A model generated the notes under the pieces. It was not told the DNA's origin. It made no database searches and saw only the letters and a list, made by a program, of their open reading frames with translations. Positions 45,146-60,945 of a stretch of DNA of 64,000 nucleotides are shown in pieces (within the stretch, counting starts at the first letter, position 1; each line of letters begins with the position of its first letter). Source of the DNA: a bacterium (GTDB lineage: Bacteria > Pseudomonadota > Gammaproteobacteria > Burkholderiales > Thiobacillaceae); contig WOUQ01000020.1 of the NCBI GenBank assembly GCA_009772925.1, positions 1 to 64,000 of the forward strand, in the 5' to 3' direction. Made by a program: the position numbers and the translations under genes.

Positions 45146-45524
45146 CGTCCCGCGGCGGCTGGTCCTGGTGATGGCGGCGGTCTTCCTCCACCGCCAGATC
45201 GATCAGGTGCGACAGGTGCGCCCCGCGTTCCACCGACTCGTCATACTGGAAACCGAGCTTGGGTACGGTGCGCATGCGCATGCGATGCGCCAGTTCCGTG
45301 CGCAGGAAGCCGGCGGCGTGGGCCAGGCCCTGGCGGGCCGCCTCGTGGTCGGCCTGGAAGGTGGTGAACCACACCTTGGCGTGTTCCAGGTCGCTGCTCA
45401 CGTCGACGGCGGTGAAGGATACGCCGGCGACGCGGGGGTCCTTCATCTCGCGCAGGACGATGTCCGCCAATTCGTGGCGGATCTGTTCGGCGACGCGGCG
45501 GGAACGGGGGTTGGTATGAGCCAT
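45129..45524 (-). CDS. rbfA: Ribosome-binding factor A
   Basis: This 131-residue KH-type protein matures 16S rRNA. Visible: RRVAEQIRHELADIVLREMK at the start, then DPRVAGVSFTAVDVSSDLEH and PKLGFQYDES. ATG 45524 lies just inside a stretch of GGACTGA heptamers that fills the gap to infB. The C-terminus is extended by an acidic/histidine tail and overlaps truB. Confidence 0.96.
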   Translation of the reverse strand: MAHTNPRSRRVAEQIRHELADIVLREMKDPRVAGVSFTAVDVSSDLEHAKVWFTTFQADHEAARQGLAHAAGFLRTELAHRMRMRTVPKLGFQYDESVERGAHLSHLIDLAVEEDRRHHQDQPPRDDEAQG

Positions 45525-45526
45525 GA

Positions 45527-45554
45527 GGACTGAGGACTGAGGACTGAGTCTTGA
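45527..45554. repeat. GGACTGA heptamer array, rbfA-infB gap
   Basis: Three exact tandem copies of GGACTGA plus one degenerate copy (GTCTTGA) lie immediately before the rbfA start on its own strand. The core resembles the GGCGTGA heptamers of the biotin operon. Confidence 0.85.
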
Positions 45555-45585
45555 CTCGCTACTCAGCACTCAGCCCTCGCTACTT

Positions 45586-48252
45586 TCAAAGAGTTCTCGC
45601 CACCTCGACCACCTCGTAGCATTCGAGCTGGTCGCCTTCCTGGATGTCGTTGAAGTTCTTGAGGGACAGGCCGCATTCGAAGCCGGCCTTCACTTCCTTC
45701 ACGTCATCCTTGAAGCGCTTGAGGGAGTCGAGTTCGCCGTCGTGCACCACCACATTGTCGCGCAGCACCCGCACCCGCGCGGAACGCTTGAGCTGGCCGT
45801 CGAGCACGTAGCAGCCGGCCACCGCGCCGACCTTGGTGATGCGGAAGACCTGGCGGATCTCGGCCAGGCCGAGGGCGTTCTCCTTCTTCTCCGGGGAGAG
45901 CAGGCCGCCGAGGGCCGCCTTCACGTCATCCACGGCCTCGTAGATGATGTTGTAGTAGCGCAGGTCGACGCCGGAGGATTCCGCCAGCTTGCGGGCCTGG
46001 GCGTCGGCGCGCACGTTGAAGCCGATGATGACCGCGCCGGAGGCGATGGCCAGGTTGATGTCGGATTCGGAGATGGCGCCGACCGCCGAGTGGATGATGT
46101 TGACCTTGACCTCGCCGGTGGACAGCTTGCCCAGGGCATGCGCCAGGCCCTCGTAGGAGCCCTGCATGTCGGCCTTGAGGATGAGGGCCAGGGATTTGAC
46201 CTCGCCCTCGCCCATCTGCTCGAACATGTTCTCCAGCTTGGCGGCCTGCTGGCGGGCCAGCTTGACGTCACGGAACTTGCCCTGGCGGAACAGGGCGATC
46301 TCCCGTGCCTTGCGCTCGTCGGGCAGCACCAGCACATCCTCGCCGGCGCCGGGCACGTCGGACAGGCCCTGGATTTCCACCGGGATGGCGGGTCCCGCCT
46401 CGTTCACCGGCTTGCCGGTCTCGTCCAGCATGGCACGCACCTTGCCGAAGGCGGAGCCGGCCAGCATGACGTCGCCCCGCTTGAGGGTGCCGGACTGGAC
46501 CAGGATGGTGGCCACCGGGCCGCGGCCCTTGTCCAGGCGGGATTCGATGACCACACCCTTGGCCAGGGTGTCCACCGGCGCCTTCAGTTCCAGCACCTCG
46601 GCCTGCAGCAACACGGCGTCCAGCAGGTCGTCGATGCCCTTGCCGGTCTTCGCGGAGACGTCCACGAACTGAGCTTCGCCGCCCCATTCCTCGGGCACCA
46701 CGCCTTCGTTGGAGACTTCCTGGCGAATCTTTTCCGGGTTGGCTTCCGGCTTGTCGATCTTGTTCACCGCCACGACGATGGGCACGTTGCCGGCCTTGGC
46801 GTGGTGGATGGCTTCCCGCGTCTGCGGCATGACGCCGTCGTCGGCGGCCACCACCAGGATGACGATGTCGGTGGCTTTCGCGCCGCGCGCCCGCATGGCC
46901 GTGAAGGCCTCGTGGCCGGGGGTGTCCAGGAAGGTGATCATGCCCTTGCCGGTTTCCACGTGATAGGCGCCGATGTGCTGGGTGATGCCGCCCGCCTCGC
47001 CGGCGGCGACGCGGGTGCGGCGGATGTGGTCAAGCAGGGAGGTCTTGCCGTGGTCGACGTGGCCCATGACGGTGACCACGGGGGCGCGCGGCTTGAGTTC
47101 GGCCTCCTTGTGCTCGCCGCTTTCCTCCAGATAGGACTCCGGCGTATCGGTCGCCGCCTGCTTGGCGACATGGCCCATCTCCTCGACCACGATCATGGCG
47201 GTTTCCTGATCCAGCACCTGGTTGATGGTGACCATGGAGCCCATCTTCATGAGCACCTTGATGACCTCGGCGGCCTTCACCGACATCTTGTGGGCCAGGT
47301 CGGCGACGCTGATGGTCTCCGGAATCAGCACCTCGCGCACCACCGGCTCGGCCGGCGCCTGCGGCGCGGATTCATGATCGGACTTGTGGCGGCCCTTTTT
47401 CGCGCGCCAGCCATCGCCCGCATCGACGGCGCCTCGGGTCCTGAGGCCCGGGCGCTTGCCCGACACCGGCTCTTCCTTGCCCTTCTTGGCGGCGGCCTTC
47501 TCCTTGTCCACCTTCGGCTTGACGCTCGGCTTCACCGCAGGCTTGGTTTCCTCGGGCTTGGCCGCCTCCGCGGGCTTCGCGGCCTCGGCCGCCTTGGCCG
47601 ATTCCTCGGCTTGCCGGCGCGCGGCCTCGCGCTCCTGCTTGGCCTTCAGTTCCGCCTCCTGGATGGCGCGCAACTTGGCGGTGCGCTTGGCCTCCAGTTC
47701 GCGCGCCTTGCGCTCGGCATCACTGAGGATGGAAGGGATGACGCGCGGGGTCACCGCAGCCGGCTTCTCCTCCACCGCGGCAACTTCGCCGGCAGGCTCT
47801 TCGGCGGCGACGACCGGGACGGACGCCTCCACCTCGGGCGTGGCCAGCGTCGGCGCCTCCACCTGCTCGGGCACGGCGACCTGGGCAACCTGCTCCTCGA
47901 CGACGGCTGGCGCGGGCGGCGCCTCGGCGGCGGCTTCGCCGGGATGCGCCTCCACGCTGGCGCCCTCGCGCTTGACCAGCACGCGCTTCTTGCGCACCTC
48001 GACCTGCACGGTGCGGGTGCGACCGGTGCTGTCGGCGGTCTTGATCTCGCCGGTCTGCTTGCGCGTCAGGGTGATCTTGGTCTTCGGCTCGCGGGCACCA
48101 TGTTTGCCGCGCAGATAATCCAGCAGACGGGATTTGTCCTGATCCGACAGAGCATCCTGCACACCCTGGACGGCCACGCCCGCGGACTGGAGCTGCTTGA
48201 CCAGCAGCGCGGGATCCACCTTGAGTTCCGTGGCGAACTGTTCGACGTTCAT
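45586..48252 (-). CDS. infB: Translation initiation factor IF-2
   Basis: This 888-residue GTPase brings fMet-tRNA to the 30S subunit. It has the IF2_N winged domain at the start ([20 protein letters not shown]), a long charged Ala/Glu/Lys linker to about 290, a second IF2_N, the G domain from about 392 with G1 [17 protein letters not shown] and NKIDKPEA, and C-terminal domains ending [20 protein letters not shown]. It lies 12 nt after nusA. Confidence 0.98.
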
Positions 48253-57320: not shown

Positions 57321-58043
57321 CTATGGCCCGGCGGCGTAGAGGGATTGCAGCGCGCGCGGCGAAATCAGGCGAGCCGCCGCGCCCGCGTCGACGGCCCGCA
57401 TGTGGGGCAGCTCCGCCAACAGCGGCGCGGGCAATCGGGCCATGAGCGCGGACAGGTTCTCGTCGTAGGCGGCCATGTCGGCGTCAATGCGGTTGGCCAC
57501 CCAGGCCGCGAGCCGCAGACCGCGCGCGGTGATGGCCTCGGCGGTGAGCAGGGCATGGTTGAGGCAGCCCAGGCGCATGCCCACCACCAGAATGAGGGGC
57601 AGGCCCAGACGCACGGCCAGGTCGGCGGTGTCCCGCTCTGGCCCCAGGGGCACACGGAAGCCGCCGACGCCCTCCACCACGACGCAATCCGCCAGCCCGG
57701 CGAGTTCGTCGAAGGCGGCGGCGATGCGCGGCAGTTCGATGCCGACGCCCTTGTGCTCCGCTGCGATATGCGGCGCGATCGGCTCGCGGAACAGATAGGG
57801 ATTCACCAGTTCGGGCGGCGCCGCGACGGCCGATGCCGCGCGCAGCAGGGCCACGTCCTCGTTGACCCAGACGCCGTCCTGCAACGCCGCCCCCGCCGCT
57901 ATCGGCTTCATGCCGACCGCGCGCACCCCGAGCCCGGCGAAGGCATGCAGGAGGGTGGCGGAAAACAGGGTCTTGCCGACGCCGGTGTCGGTGCCGGTGA
58001 TGAAAAAGCCGCGAGGCGTAAGACGTGAGGCGTGAGGGCTCAC
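57321..58043 (-). CDS. bioD: Dethiobiotin synthetase
   Basis: This 240-residue ATP-dependent enzyme closes the ureido ring of dethiobiotin. P-loop GTDTGVGKT is at about residues 17-25, then MKPIAAGA and EGVGGFRVPLG. A GTG at 58043 overlaps the bioC stop (GTGA). The first ten residues (SPHASRLTP) are encoded by the GGCGTGA heptamer array and are not part of the normal family start, which begins near the FFITGTDT strand. Last gene of bioB-F-H-C-D. Confidence 0.94.
   Translation of the reverse strand: MSPHASRLTPRGFFITGTDTGVGKTLFSATLLHAFAGLGVRAVGMKPIAAGAALQDGVWVNEDVALLRAASAVAAPPELVNPYLFREPIAPHIAAEHKGVGIELPRIAAAFDELAGLADCVVVEGVGGFRVPLGPERDTADLAVRLGLPLILVVGMRLGCLNHALLTAEAITARGLRLAAWVANRIDADMAAYDENLSALMARLPAPLLAELPHMRAVDAGAAARLISPRALQSLYAAGP
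58015..58042. repeat. GGCGTGA heptamer array at the bioC-bioD junction
   Basis: Four 7-mers in register: GGCGTAA, GACGTGA, GGCGTGA, GGGCTCA. They encode the N-terminus of BioD on the minus strand. Confidence 0.85.
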
Positions 58044-58942
58044 AGGCCACCCCGCTTGCCAGCAATCTTCAGCTGGATAACTTGGCGGCCGTCCTCCAGC
58101 CGGTCCTTGCGGCCCGCCCAGGCGTGGCCATAGACCACCTCGTAGGTGGCGGGCAGGCGGCCATCGCGGCGGTAGCGCTCGTAGTGGTCGGCCAGGCGTT
58201 TCCACTCCGTCTTGCCCATGAGGCCGGCACGGCGGTTTTCCAGCACGGTGTGGGCGCCGATGGCCTTGAGGTCGCGCAGCAAGCCGGGCAGGGCTTCGTA
58301 GGTCAGGGTGATGCGCTCCATCTCCATGACCGGATTGCTGAAGCCGGCGTGAACCAAAGCGTCGCCCAGGTCGTGCATGTCGATGAAGCGGTTCACGTGC
58401 TGGTGACCGTCCAGGTCCGCCGAGGCGGCGCGCAGTTCCATCAGGGTGTCCGGGCCGAAGGTGGCAAACAGGAACAGCCCCTCCGGCTTCAATACCCGGT
58501 GGGCTTCGCGGAAGGTGATATCCGGTTCGACCACCCATTGCAGGGCCAGGCTGGACCAGACCATGTCCAGGCTGTCCTTGCGCAAGGGCAGGCGTTCCAT
58601 GTCGGCGCACAGGGTCGTCAGGCGTGAGGCGTGAGGCGTGAGGCGGGATAACCATGTGCGCCAGCCTGCCGCCTGGGCATGGCCGTGGGCGGCGTGCAGG
58701 GCCATGGCATGGGCCAGGTCCAGGCCCAGCAGCCGCGCCTTGGGAAAGCGCGCCTTGAGCAGGGAGAGGCCGAAGCCGGTGCCGCAGCCGGCGTCCAGGA
58801 TCATACCCGGATCGATCTTCATGCCGTCCAGATGGTCGTCCAGGCGGCGGGCCACCTCATGTTGCAGGAAAGCGGCCTCGTCGTAGCGCTCGGCCGCGGC
58901 CTCGAAGGAGCGGCGGATGGCCCGCTTCAGGCTGTCATCCAT
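58040..58942 (-). CDS. bioC: Malonyl-ACP O-methyltransferase BioC
   Basis: This 300-residue SAM enzyme methylates malonyl-ACP so that fatty-acid synthesis can make pimeloyl-ACP. SAM motif I DAGCGTG is at 50-56, with LGLDLA later and MVWSSLALQW for motif post I. Residues about 97-110 (SRLTPHASRLTT) are an insertion encoded by the heptamer array at 58621. Start ATG 58942 overlaps bioH by 8 nt. Confidence 0.95.
   Translation of the reverse strand: MDDSLKRAIRRSFEAAAERYDEAAFLQHEVARRLDDHLDGMKIDPGMILDAGCGTGFGLSLLKARFPKARLLGLDLAHAMALHAAHGHAQAAGWRTWLSRLTPHASRLTTLCADMERLPLRKDSLDMVWSSLALQWVVEPDITFREAHRVLKPEGLFLFATFGPDTLMELRAASADLDGHQHVNRFIDMHDLGDALVHAGFSNPVMEMERITLTYEALPGLLRDLKAIGAHTVLENRRAGLMGKTEWKRLADHYERYRRDGRLPATYEVVYGHAWAGRKDRLEDGRQVIQLKIAGKRGGL
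58621..58648. repeat. GGCGTGA heptamer array inside bioC
   Basis: Three exact GGCGTGA copies and one GGCGGGA sit in the coding region. Read on the minus strand three copies make 21 nt that encode SRLTPHA. Confidence 0.9.
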
Positions 58943-59675
58943 CGAGGAAGCCCCCCACCTGCTCGGCGAACCAGACCGGATGGGACAGGAAAGGCGCGTG
59001 CGCGGCGCGTTCGTGCAGAGCCAGGCGGGCGTCCGGAATCTGTTCCGCCAGCCAGTGTGCGGCCTCCACGGGGCACAGGGTGTCGTAGGCCCCGTGCACC
59101 ACCAGGGTGGGACAGCGTACCCGGGCCGCGACGGCGCGCAGGTCGACGTCCCGCAACAGGTCGAGGCCGGCGGCGAGCACTTCGCTGGCCGGCTCGCCGC
59201 GTTGGAACACGGTTTCGCGCAGACGGGCGATCACCTCCCGCGCCGCGTCGCCGCCGCGGGCCTGGAGAGAAAGGAAACGCAGCAGGGTGGCGCGGTAATC
59301 CTGCTTCAGGGATGCGGCAAAGCCCGCCAGTACCTCGGGAGCCAGGCCGTGCAGCCAATCGGGCCGGCTGACGAAGGTCGGATTGGTGCCCACCAGCACG
59401 AGCCTGGACACCTTGTCCGGATGCCGCGCCGCCAGGGCCAGGGCCACCATGCCACCCAGCGACCAGCCAACAAGTTGAACAGGTTGACTCAGGGGCGCGG
59501 CGACCGCGTCGGCCAGGATTGCCGCCGTGTAAGGCGAAACCGAGGGCGTATCGCCATAGCCGGGCAGGTCCGGGCATGCGCCGGCCAGGCCGCACTCGGC
59601 CCAGATGCCGCCGTGCAGGCCCCATCCGTGCAGAAAAATCCGGCGAGGCGTGAACGCTGAGGCGTGAGGGGTCAT
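58935..59675 (-). CDS. bioH: Pimeloyl-ACP methyl ester carboxylesterase BioH
   Basis: This 246-residue alpha/beta hydrolase releases pimeloyl-ACP from its methyl ester. Nucleophile S72 lies in GWSLGG (70-75), with catalytic Asp in HGAYDTLCP and His in the HERAAHAPFLSH segment. The N-terminal MTPHASAFTPRR is encoded by heptamers at 59647; the family normally begins at about the IFLHGWG strand. ATG 59675 overlaps the bioF stop. Confidence 0.92.
   Translation of the reverse strand: MTPHASAFTPRRIFLHGWGLHGGIWAECGLAGACPDLPGYGDTPSVSPYTAAILADAVAAPLSQPVQLVGWSLGGMVALALAARHPDKVSRLVLVGTNPTFVSRPDWLHGLAPEVLAGFAASLKQDYRATLLRFLSLQARGGDAAREVIARLRETVFQRGEPASEVLAAGLDLLRDVDLRAVAARVRCPTLVVHGAYDTLCPVEAAHWLAEQIPDARLALHERAAHAPFLSHPVWFAEQVGGFLDG
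59647..59674. repeat. GGCGTGA heptamer array at the bioF-bioH junction
   Basis: Four 7-mers in register: GGCGTGA, ACGCTGA, GGCGTGA, GGGGTCA. They encode the N-terminal extension of BioH. Confidence 0.85.
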
Positions 59676-60838
59676 CAAGGCGCCAGCTCCCGCAAGGCGG
59701 CCAGCAAGCTATCGAGGTCAGCGACGCCGTGGGCGGCGGACAGGGAGATGCGGAGCCGGGCCTGGCCCTGGGGCACGGTGGGCGGCCGGATCGCGGGGAT
59801 GAGGATGCCCCGCGCGCGCAAGCCCTCCGCCAGGCGCACGGCATCCTCGTTGCCGCCCACAAGCAGGGGCTGGATGGGACTGTCCGAGGCCACCAGGGGC
59901 CAGGGCAGGTCGGCGACGCCGGCTTTCAGGCGGGCGATCAGTTCGGCCAGGCGCTGACGCCGCCAGGGCTCCCCGGCGATAAGCTTCAGGCTTGCCGACA
60001 CCGCCGCCGCAAGCAGGGGCGGCTGGGCGGTGGTGTAGATATAGGTGCGAGCCCGGTTCACCAGCCATTCGACGAGTTCTTCCGTGCCCGCGACGAAGGC
60101 CCCGGCGACGCCAGCGGCCTTGCCCAAAGTCGCCATGTAGATCAGTGAGGGGTGGGGCGTGAGGCGCGAGGCGGATAGGGCATGGGGATGTTCCGCCTCA
60201 CGCTCCAGCACACCGAAGCCATGCGCATCGTCCACGTAAAGCCAGGCGTCGTGCTTCTCCGCCAGGGCCAACAGTTCAGGTATGGGCGCCAGGTCGCCGT
60301 CCATGCTGAACACCGTGTCCGTGGCGATGAGCTTCACCTGGGCCACGCTCTCCCCCAGCCTGCGGTCCAGCCAGGCCAGGTCCAGATGGGGGTAGCGGGT
60401 GAGTTTCGCCCGCGAAAGCAAGGCCGCGTCCACCAGGGAGGCGTGGTTGAGGCGGTCTTCGAACACCTCGCCGTGACGGTCTAGCAGAGCCGGGATCACC
60501 CCCAGGCTGGCCATGTAGCCGGTCGAGAACAGCAGCGCGGCGGGCAGGCCGACGAAGGCGGCGAGTTCGGCTTCCAGCTCATGGTGCAGGCGATGGTGGC
60601 CGGTCAGCAGGTGGGCAGCGCCGGCTCCCACGCCGAAGCGAGCGACGGCAAGCTGGGTGGCGCTGACGATCTCGGGATGGTTGGCCAGGCCCAGGTAGTC
60701 GTTGCTGGAGAAAGACAGGTAGTCGCGGCCGTCCACCCGCACCCGCACACCCTGTGGTCCATCGAGGACCCGGCGGCGGCGACGCAGGCCCTGGCTGTCC
60801 AGGTCGGCGAGGGCGAAAGCAAGCTGATCGGGGTTCAT
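59675..60838 (-). CDS. bioF: 8-amino-7-oxononanoate synthase
   Basis: This 387-residue PLP enzyme condenses pimeloyl-ACP and alanine. Visible: SSNDYLGLANHP near 44, VDDAHGFGVL near 202-210, and the PLP lysine K240 in YMATLGKAAGV. Residues about 216-230 (EHPHALSASRLTPHP) replace the usual short linker here and derive from the heptamer array at 60142. ATG 60838. A REP-type hairpin separates it from bioB. Confidence 0.95.
   Translation of the reverse strand: MNPDQLAFALADLDSQGLRRRRRVLDGPQGVRVRVDGRDYLSFSSNDYLGLANHPEIVSATQLAVARFGVGAGAAHLLTGHHRLHHELEAELAAFVGLPAALLFSTGYMASLGVIPALLDRHGEVFEDRLNHASLVDAALLSRAKLTRYPHLDLAWLDRRLGESVAQVKLIATDTVFSMDGDLAPIPELLALAEKHDAWLYVDDAHGFGVLEREAEHPHALSASRLTPHPSLIYMATLGKAAGVAGAFVAGTEELVEWLVNRARTYIYTTAQPPLLAAAVSASLKLIAGEPWRRQRLAELIARLKAGVADLPWPLVASDSPIQPLLVGGNEDAVRLAEGLRARGILIPAIRPPTVPQGQARLRISLSAAHGVADLDSLLAALRELAP
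60142..60176. repeat. Degenerate GGCGTGA heptamers inside bioF
   Basis: GGCGTGA, GGCGCGA and GGCGGAT in register, preceded by AGTGAGG-type sequence, are translated as SASRLTPHP on the minus strand. It is the most degenerate of the four biotin-operon arrays. Confidence 0.75.
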
Positions 60839-60903
60839 GTCGACGTCACTCCCCCGCCAAGTGGCCGGGAGAGAGGGAGTCCGCTTCGGTCTTCCAGGCC
60901 GAG

Positions 60904-60938
60904 CTCCCTCACCCCGGCCCTCTCCCGGCGGGAGAGGG
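60904..60938 (+). repeat. REP-like hairpin, CCCTCTCCC family, copy 3
   Basis: CTCCCTCACCCC is followed by CCCTCTCCC-GGC-GGGAGAGGG (60918-60938), a 9-bp stem. It lies in the bioB-bioF gap. Confidence 0.8.
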
Positions 60939-60945
60939 AGTAACG

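Follow-up and report, generated by a model that had tools for sequence, protein, structure and literature searches.

Why should several genes of a biotin biosynthesis operon carry tandem repeats of the same 7-nt unit, translated in frame within the enzymes that they encode? We address this question for the bio operon of a Thiobacillaceae bacterium (assembly GCA_009772925.1), which lies in the first 64,000 nt of contig WOUQ01000020.1 (hereafter the window). We consider it likely that these heptamer arrays, which lie in bioD, bioC, bioH and bioF, are footprints, lacking the gene, of selfish elements of the intervening sequence (IVS) type, on the grounds of their unit family, polarity, site and co-occurrence with such elements. 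The arrays had been described in a first-pass annotation of the window; that observation is real in outline, its details are corrected below, and it leads on to heptamer arrays as the arms of IVS-type elements outside rRNA. The link to IVSs and to the protein family PF05635 is a result of the follow-up analysis and was absent from the annotation.

The host genome (G000) is a 3.22 Mb betaproteobacterial draft, and its nearest named BioC relatives, within an order that we take to be Burkholderiales, are metagenome-assembled genomes (MAGs) at most 71% identical, several of them titled Thiobacillus, Hydrogenophilales or Gallionellaceae; some record titles appear to be mislabelled (for instance, loci titled Bordetella parapertussis MAG). 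G020 denotes the sister species, C a contig and L a fetched locus.

All four arrays reported in the window, in one orientation, were recovered (Table 1), and BioB, said to be free of them, indeed gave no match at up to three mismatches. Exact GGCGTGA units stand in tandem only at 58621-58641; the BioC array is nearly exact from 58621 to 58648 and the other three are degenerate. An exact GGCGTGA dimer appeared in none of 50 second-order Markov simulations of the window, and these tandem 7-nt units, being beyond chance, constitute a heptanucleotide simple sequence repeat. Single 14-mers at up to three mismatches were at chance level in the window (21 seen vs 16.3 expected), and the three weaker sites therefore rest on their tandem arrangement and on the relatives. 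We also noticed in BioF a short array of opposite orientation, not mentioned in the first-pass annotation, which is a 14-mer with three mismatches and weak alone. On the coding strand, the two BioF arrays follow the order, G-array and then C-array, that is observed for pairs in relatives.

This order was examined in 80 further loci fetched around arrays, 96 loci with distinct central arrays being scored. Among neighbouring arrays no more than 500 nt apart, we counted 32 opposite and 3 parallel pairs, and every opposite pair had the G-array first (L230 and L324 are one pair counted twice, which leaves 31 distinct opposite pairs). The reversed-pattern control for this test matched 110 times and is uninformative, since related units match the reversed pattern. 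Of the spacers between paired arrays, 23 were short (7-84 nt) and the others 130-388 nt long, and five of the eight distinct long spacers were genes of the PF05635 family (23S rRNA intervening-sequence protein, S23; TIGR02436, four helix bundle protein), one of them in the host, on C29.

The converse also holds, as the flanks of PF05635 genes chosen regardless of repeats are heptamer arrays in most cases. PF05635 matched in 70 of 300 genomes of the order (65 above the family cut-off) and in none of 14 control genomes. We took 91 loci, namely all 31 first supplied and 60 hand-chosen from further listed places, and scored 84 of them, six not being located by our own profile and one having no flank; two pairs within the set (L421/L422 and L423/L424) are identical. 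The lag-7 score averaged 14.4 upstream and 15.4 downstream, compared with 9.0 in 1,310 control windows, while lags 4-6 and 9-12 were at control level and lag 8 was slightly raised. A lag-7 score of at least 15 of 21 was reached on one side in 66/84 loci and on both sides in 35/84, against 0.6% of control windows, and inverted complementarity exceeded the 99th percentile of the control in 61/84 loci, against 4.6% of cross-locus pairings. The flanking units are lineage-specific (GGACTGA, GGATTGA, GGGGCTA, GTGACGA, GGTAGCG, TGAGGNG and others) and share one polarity, with G exceeding C in 41 of 44 upstream arrays and C exceeding G in 56 of 57 downstream ones. Plasmids gave a similar picture: 25 records had a PF05635 match, and in the 14 loci fetched (13 cyanobacterial and one from Azospirillum, with Riemerella and Gemmatirosa left out) the lag-7 scores were 16.4 and 15.6 vs 9.4, other lags being slightly raised too, with a score of at least 15 on one side in 12/14 and complementarity above control in 8/14. 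No match to the PF05635 protein was found in phage records.

An Rfam scan of 40 of the 91 PF05635 loci (the second 20 not randomly picked) located five of them within 23S rRNA (three genomes, three distinct sequences), and the stems of these five are heptamer arrays. Classical 23S rRNA IVSs and the elements in operons thus have protein, stem and unit length in common. The first 20 loci had no Rfam match, 35 of the 40 show no rRNA, and the PF05635 loci examined outside rRNA lie at junctions of protein genes.

Presence and absence could be followed at the host site on C29. Of 22 congeners compared, all but G004 matched its flanks, and joining succeeded for 20 of these 21, the exception being G005. 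The gap between the flanks measures 474 nt in the host, 58-195 nt in 13 congeners and, filled with other sequence, 472-1089 nt in seven, the sister species having 109 nt; none of the 20 joinable congeners has in it a PF05635-like open reading frame (ORF) or a lag-7 score of at least 15 (21 in the host). The gene downstream of the host element now begins MMPTQPSVLSPRYSDLL, its first codons being the right array. Such fusions recur next to PF05635 genes, as in MPSSSRLTPHPSRIRILGIDPG, MNASHITPHTSHTFSFEFFPPKTPE and MTAHSSPLTAHHTKGIILAGGSGTR, the N-termini of what we take to be RuvC, MetF and RfbA, respectively. In a count made without a control, a gene started at most 48 nt from the PF05635 stop in 19 of 62 scorable loci, in 11 of them at the stop or within 2 nt. 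BioD (MSPHASRLTPRGFFITGTDTG) and BioH of the window have the same right-array N-terminal build without a PF05635 gene, and no PF05635 ORF was found in the window, the four bio arrays included, with our own profile at E up to 0.01. One complete element does occur in a bio operon: among the window and 110 bio loci scanned, L109 carries a PF05635 gene between bioB and bioF, flanked by inverted arrays of the GTGTTGA type, the right one of which contains the start of BioF (VPNSTLSTQHLTLSAQ..., read in the frame that matched BioF); the bioD start of L109 also carries a TCACNCC array.

Array and gene are associated across genomes as well. The array survey and the PF05635 survey were taken to cover the same 300 genomes, their handles and parameters being in agreement; TGAGGNN arrays and PF05635 occurred together in 27, arrays only in 15, PF05635 only in 43 and neither in 215 (p 7e-10, uncorrected for kinship). 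TGAGGNN arrays were present in 13 of 18 genomes with TGAGG-type PF05635 flanks vs 11 of 39 others (p 0.003).

A full element thus consists of a G-rich heptamer array, a PF05635 gene (S23, a four-helix bundle) and a complementary C-rich array, and its RNA can form a hairpin with the gene in the loop. Such elements occur both in 23S rRNA genes, as the classical IVS, and at protein-gene junctions, where the right array, read through in frame, can become the N-terminus of the next protein; RNase III may cut the RNA stem as it does in rRNA IVSs. We hypothesize that the four bio arrays arose from full elements by loss of the gene. They would persist in frame, for the most part with the stop-free strand being read, at N-termini and in variable loops, where a change of length does no harm.

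Several observations count against this proposal. A clear partner is missing for three of the four bio arrays, and the partner in host BioF is weak: the host BioF pair folds with a z score of -1.85, the bioD stretch with -1.4, and the BioC stretch with -3.0, through array-flanking sequence rather than a partner array. The BioF pair of G020, in contrast, folds with a z score of -4.8, which speaks for the proposal. No TGAGGNG-flanked PF05635 copy was found in the host, whose two copies have GGACTGA and GGGAAAC units, and PF05635 went unmatched in 15 of the 42 genomes that carry TGAGGNN arrays. Among the PF05635 loci, 23/84 show no significant inverted complementarity and the arrays of L471 and L417 look direct on both sides; among the plasmid loci, L463 and L464 have no lag-7 signal and L461, L462, L467 and L468 resemble one another. 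The comparison of an insertion site with relatives concerns one site only, that on C29.

Table 1. Genes, heptamer arrays and PF05635 genes of the host; positions without a contig label refer to the window.
Feature	Position	Strand	Remarks
bioD	57321..58043	-	
bioC	58040..58942	-	
bioH	58935..59675	-	
bioF	59675..60838	-	
bioD array, degenerate TCACGCC, 4 units	58015..58042	-	right behind GTG start; encodes (M)SPHASRLTP
BioC array, TCACGCC	58614..58648	-	in most length-variable BioC segment; encodes SRLTPHASRLT
bioH array, degenerate TCACGCC	59647..59674	-	right behind start; encodes MTPHASAFTP
BioF C-type array, half of a probable inverted pair	60142..60176	-	in most length-variable, low-confidence loop, residues 212-233
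BioF G-type partner array, short	60191..60204	-	G-array first on coding strand; 21 nt longer in G020
Gene-less inverted pair	45513..45590	.	TGAGGAC array (45524-45548), then degenerate ACTCAGC/ACTCGCT array (by eye)
Host PF05635 gene	C29:4588-4902 (L331/L348)		GGACTGA arms
Host PF05635 gene	C4:279597-279896 (L349)		GGGAAAC arms

Where in the bio proteins do the arrays lie? In BioF, the array is inside segment 210-234, which spans 13-47 residues among 28 BioF sequences, two other segments varying slightly; the variable segment has 22 residues in the host and a median of 22 among relatives, and host BioF is 3 residues longer than the solved BioF 5vnx. In the BioF model (mean predicted local distance difference test score, pLDDT, of 86), residues 213-225 are the only run of at least three residues with pLDDT below 50. 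The BioC array likewise lies in the most length-variable segment of that protein (80-112; 31 residues in the host, median 30, 31 sequences). The arrays had been taken for internal inserts in both proteins, and relatives with equally long, conserved segments had been named as evidence to the contrary: the relatives are in fact equally long at these places, so that net insertions are not borne out, and the segments are not conserved. The array-coded N-terminal extensions of BioD and BioH do hold, BioD being 8 residues longer at its N-terminus than 1dts and BioH beginning M(M)TPHASAFTPRR. The GTG start of bioD overlaps the stop codon of bioC, and the ATG of bioH that of bioF. The bioC stop and the GTDT motif are 44 nt apart in the host and 14-37 nt apart in 50 of 58 named relatives; six of the eight named relatives with at least 44 nt have a heptamer array there. 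In other species, the BioF loop seems to be filled by other in-frame repeats (TCACCCC, CCACTCG and CGACTCG arrays, judged by eye), and in L052, L187 and L188 palindromic-looking repeats of other families lie in frame within it. The BioC array also lies in the loop of a predicted RNA hairpin formed by the flanking GGCGCACA and TGTGCGCC (window 58600-58700, z -3.0).

The reading frame accounts for the orientation of the arrays. Repeats of TCACGCC have no stop in any frame and are translated as the peptide cycle SRLTPHA; GGCGTGA includes a TGA and, in exact units, closes every frame within three units, so that a single orientation inside genes needs no special cause. The G-arrays of BioF in the host and in G020 escape closure since they are short or degenerate and their frame avoids TGA. 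Translation as the SRLTPHA cycle, tolerated within biosynthetic enzymes, is supported; the statement that any array adds whole codons is wrong, as the frame is kept only by multiples of three heptamer units.

The sister species G020, 93.7% identical to the host in nucleotides over the bio stretch, allowed array lengths to be compared. The only change of length at the four bio sites is one of 21 nt, in frame, in BioF, and lengths were equal in the other seven of eight aligned host/G020 pairs; the pairs were chosen since both species carry the arrays, which makes gain and loss invisible, and a ninth pair (L252/L179) was left out for want of an alignment. An intergenic TGAAGGG array, with aligned flanks, has an exact run of 96 nt in the host (C1:34247, L328) vs 26 nt in G020 (C11:31257, L345). 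Phase variation is therefore unsupported for the short arrays, the long intergenic one being variable.

Is the bio operon a special place for these arrays? In the host, 3 of 26 genome-wide clusters (at most two mismatches, counted by hand) fall in about 2.2 kb of the bio operon. In 80 other named loci (793 kb), all 11 arrays are in the bio operon, the reversed control pattern giving four matches in all, and 10 of 17 exact period-7 runs lie in the bio span, which makes up 29% of the bases (binomial P 0.010); these loci were found with an array-containing BioC query, which favours the BioC site in the count and not the other sites, and stretches picked around arrays give no array densities. In a sample of 22 arrays from 22 other genomes, unbiased by a bio query, one (L225) was at the bioD start, a site at which arrays recur in L064, L073, L078, L088, L090 and L109 as well as L225. 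The reported clustering in the operon thus stands as a density above expectation, and not as an exclusive one. Repeats confined to biotin genes had to be rejected, since in-frame arrays were also present in ten further host ORFs with core-enzyme Pfam matches (NadD, LpxB, a sugar nucleotidyltransferase, a UbiH-like oxidoreductase, Lpd, AroA, ValS, a LipA-like radical SAM protein, ApbE and a cyclase); the names NadD, UbiH, Lpd, LipA and ValS are presumed, partly from those of Pfam families. In 399 genomes of the order, exact (TCACGCC)x3 was found in 24 and the reversed control in 1. The edges of the arrays are biased in phase, the right edge lying at two positions in 87 of 121 arrays vs 39.8 expected, and the G strand of these 121 arrays tends to end after GNG or GNGT. 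We did not rely on this bias as a sign of telomerase-like addition, since decay of terminal units may contribute to it.

Could the arrays have grown in place by ordinary slippage, as heptanucleotide microsatellites expanding from a short seed such as the MTPHG codons at the bioD start and surviving where tolerated? Seed-like starts do exist in array-free relatives (L054, ATGACGCCACACGGG), neutral repeats would be expected to last in precisely such places as loops and N-termini, and the long TGAAGGG array varies in length as slippage would have it; heptanucleotide repeats were moreover reported to outnumber all other classes in most genomes, and slippage was proposed (Mrazek, 2007, as cited in PMC4679880). 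However, we regard this explanation as unlikely, because the same unit appears at unlinked loci and in 24 of the 399 genomes compared with one for the reversed control, the short arrays hardly change between the sister species, and slippage predicts neither inverted pairs of one polarity, nor phase-preferring edges, nor the link to PF05635.

The order of events may instead have been the reverse, the arrays being a separate, older class of repeat in which PF05635 elements land. Gene-less arrays outnumber PF05635 genes in the host (26 clusters vs 2), and the array genomes without PF05635 mentioned above would fit. This appears more doubtful still, since array and gene are jointly absent from C29 in all 20 joinable congeners, a matched inverted pair with a polarity tied to the direction of the gene surrounds most PF05635 genes, and rRNA IVSs have heptamer stems as well. 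Selection for the array peptides or RNA, for instance in translation control at the overlapping bio starts, could be read from the recurrence at the bioD start, and yet is very improbable: most relatives have no arrays at these places, units and amino acids drift between the sister species, and other repeats seem, by eye, to occupy the BioF loop elsewhere.

An origin from IVS-type elements can be set beside several known systems. Rickettsia palindromic elements are selfish, too, and are retained within protein genes without loss of frame; they are not heptamer arrays, and we know of no IVS protein for them. The Coxiella IVS, a selfish element according to its description, has complementary borders and an S23p gene and is excised by RNase III (PMC4990558); the full elements resemble it in having complementary borders able to form a stem and an S23p gene in the loop. 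Unlike the 23S rRNA IVS, the bio arrays are gene-less and lie in protein genes instead of helices 9, 25 or 45 of 23S rRNA; what we describe would work like an IVS and, by its location, is not a classical one. The heptamers of Xanthomonas (GGGAATC) and Nostoc also have lineage-specific 7-nt units, with 70 and 75 convergent inverted pairs in two Xanthomonas genomes, but they are treated as G-quadruplex repeats, in a main text without the words "four helix" or "intervening" (PMC4692102). TAACTGA repeats of Beggiatoaceae, Cyanobacteria and Bacteroidetes share with the bio arrays the 7-nt unit, the position near gene starts and one strand closed in all frames with the other translated (LSVISYQ), the same argument on closed and translated strands having been made for them; they are read as regulatory, and the parts of that paper covered here propose no gene-bearing element (PMC4679880). 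Among open-licence papers, we found no link of heptamer arrays to PF05635 or four-helix proteins.

If correct, our proposal would trace two puzzles, why 7-nt repeats abound in bacterial genomes and what the widespread S23/four-helix proteins do, to one small, widespread and barely described element with a testable life cycle. It would also mean that selfish DNA can endure inside biosynthetic enzymes, by way of a stop-free strand, 21-nt steps, N-termini and variable loops, and annotators may have to reckon with SRLTPHA-like N-termini and loops that are element-derived.

A wider conjecture, which we put forward tentatively and with less confidence than the origin of the bio arrays, concerns other heptamer repeats. 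The short tandemly repeated repetitive sequences (STRRs) of cyanobacteria are long-known heptamer repeats, and S23 resembles Avd, the partner protein of diversity-generating retroelements. Most heptanucleotide repeats of proteobacteria and cyanobacteria, STRRs included, might be the ends and gene-less remnants of a single, ancient family of selfish elements based on an RNA hairpin, the IVS, that left or entered rRNA and spreads through operons. Its stem would be built and copied seven nucleotides at a time with the help of the four-helix S23 protein, a reverse transcriptase perhaps acting in trans, and its right arm would fuse in frame to host genes. The element would then keep supplying proteins with new N-termini and loops.

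Three further observations concern the surroundings of these repeats. In the cyanobacterial plasmids L464, L466 and L471, the PF05635 gene lies inside CRISPR-cas clusters, where its neighbours are cas10 and cmr3 or cas6 and cas4. The bioB-bioF spacer of the window (60850-60945) has a different repeat, a GGGAGAGGG/CCCTCTCCC palindrome, presumably of a type common in proteobacterial spacers. Finally, the gene-less inverted pair at 45513-45590, also unnoticed in the first-pass annotation, lies between putative infB and rbfA genes, as we take these two ORFs to be, and abuts the putative rbfA start; its TGAGGAC unit is the same as that of the arms of the host PF05635 element on C29.

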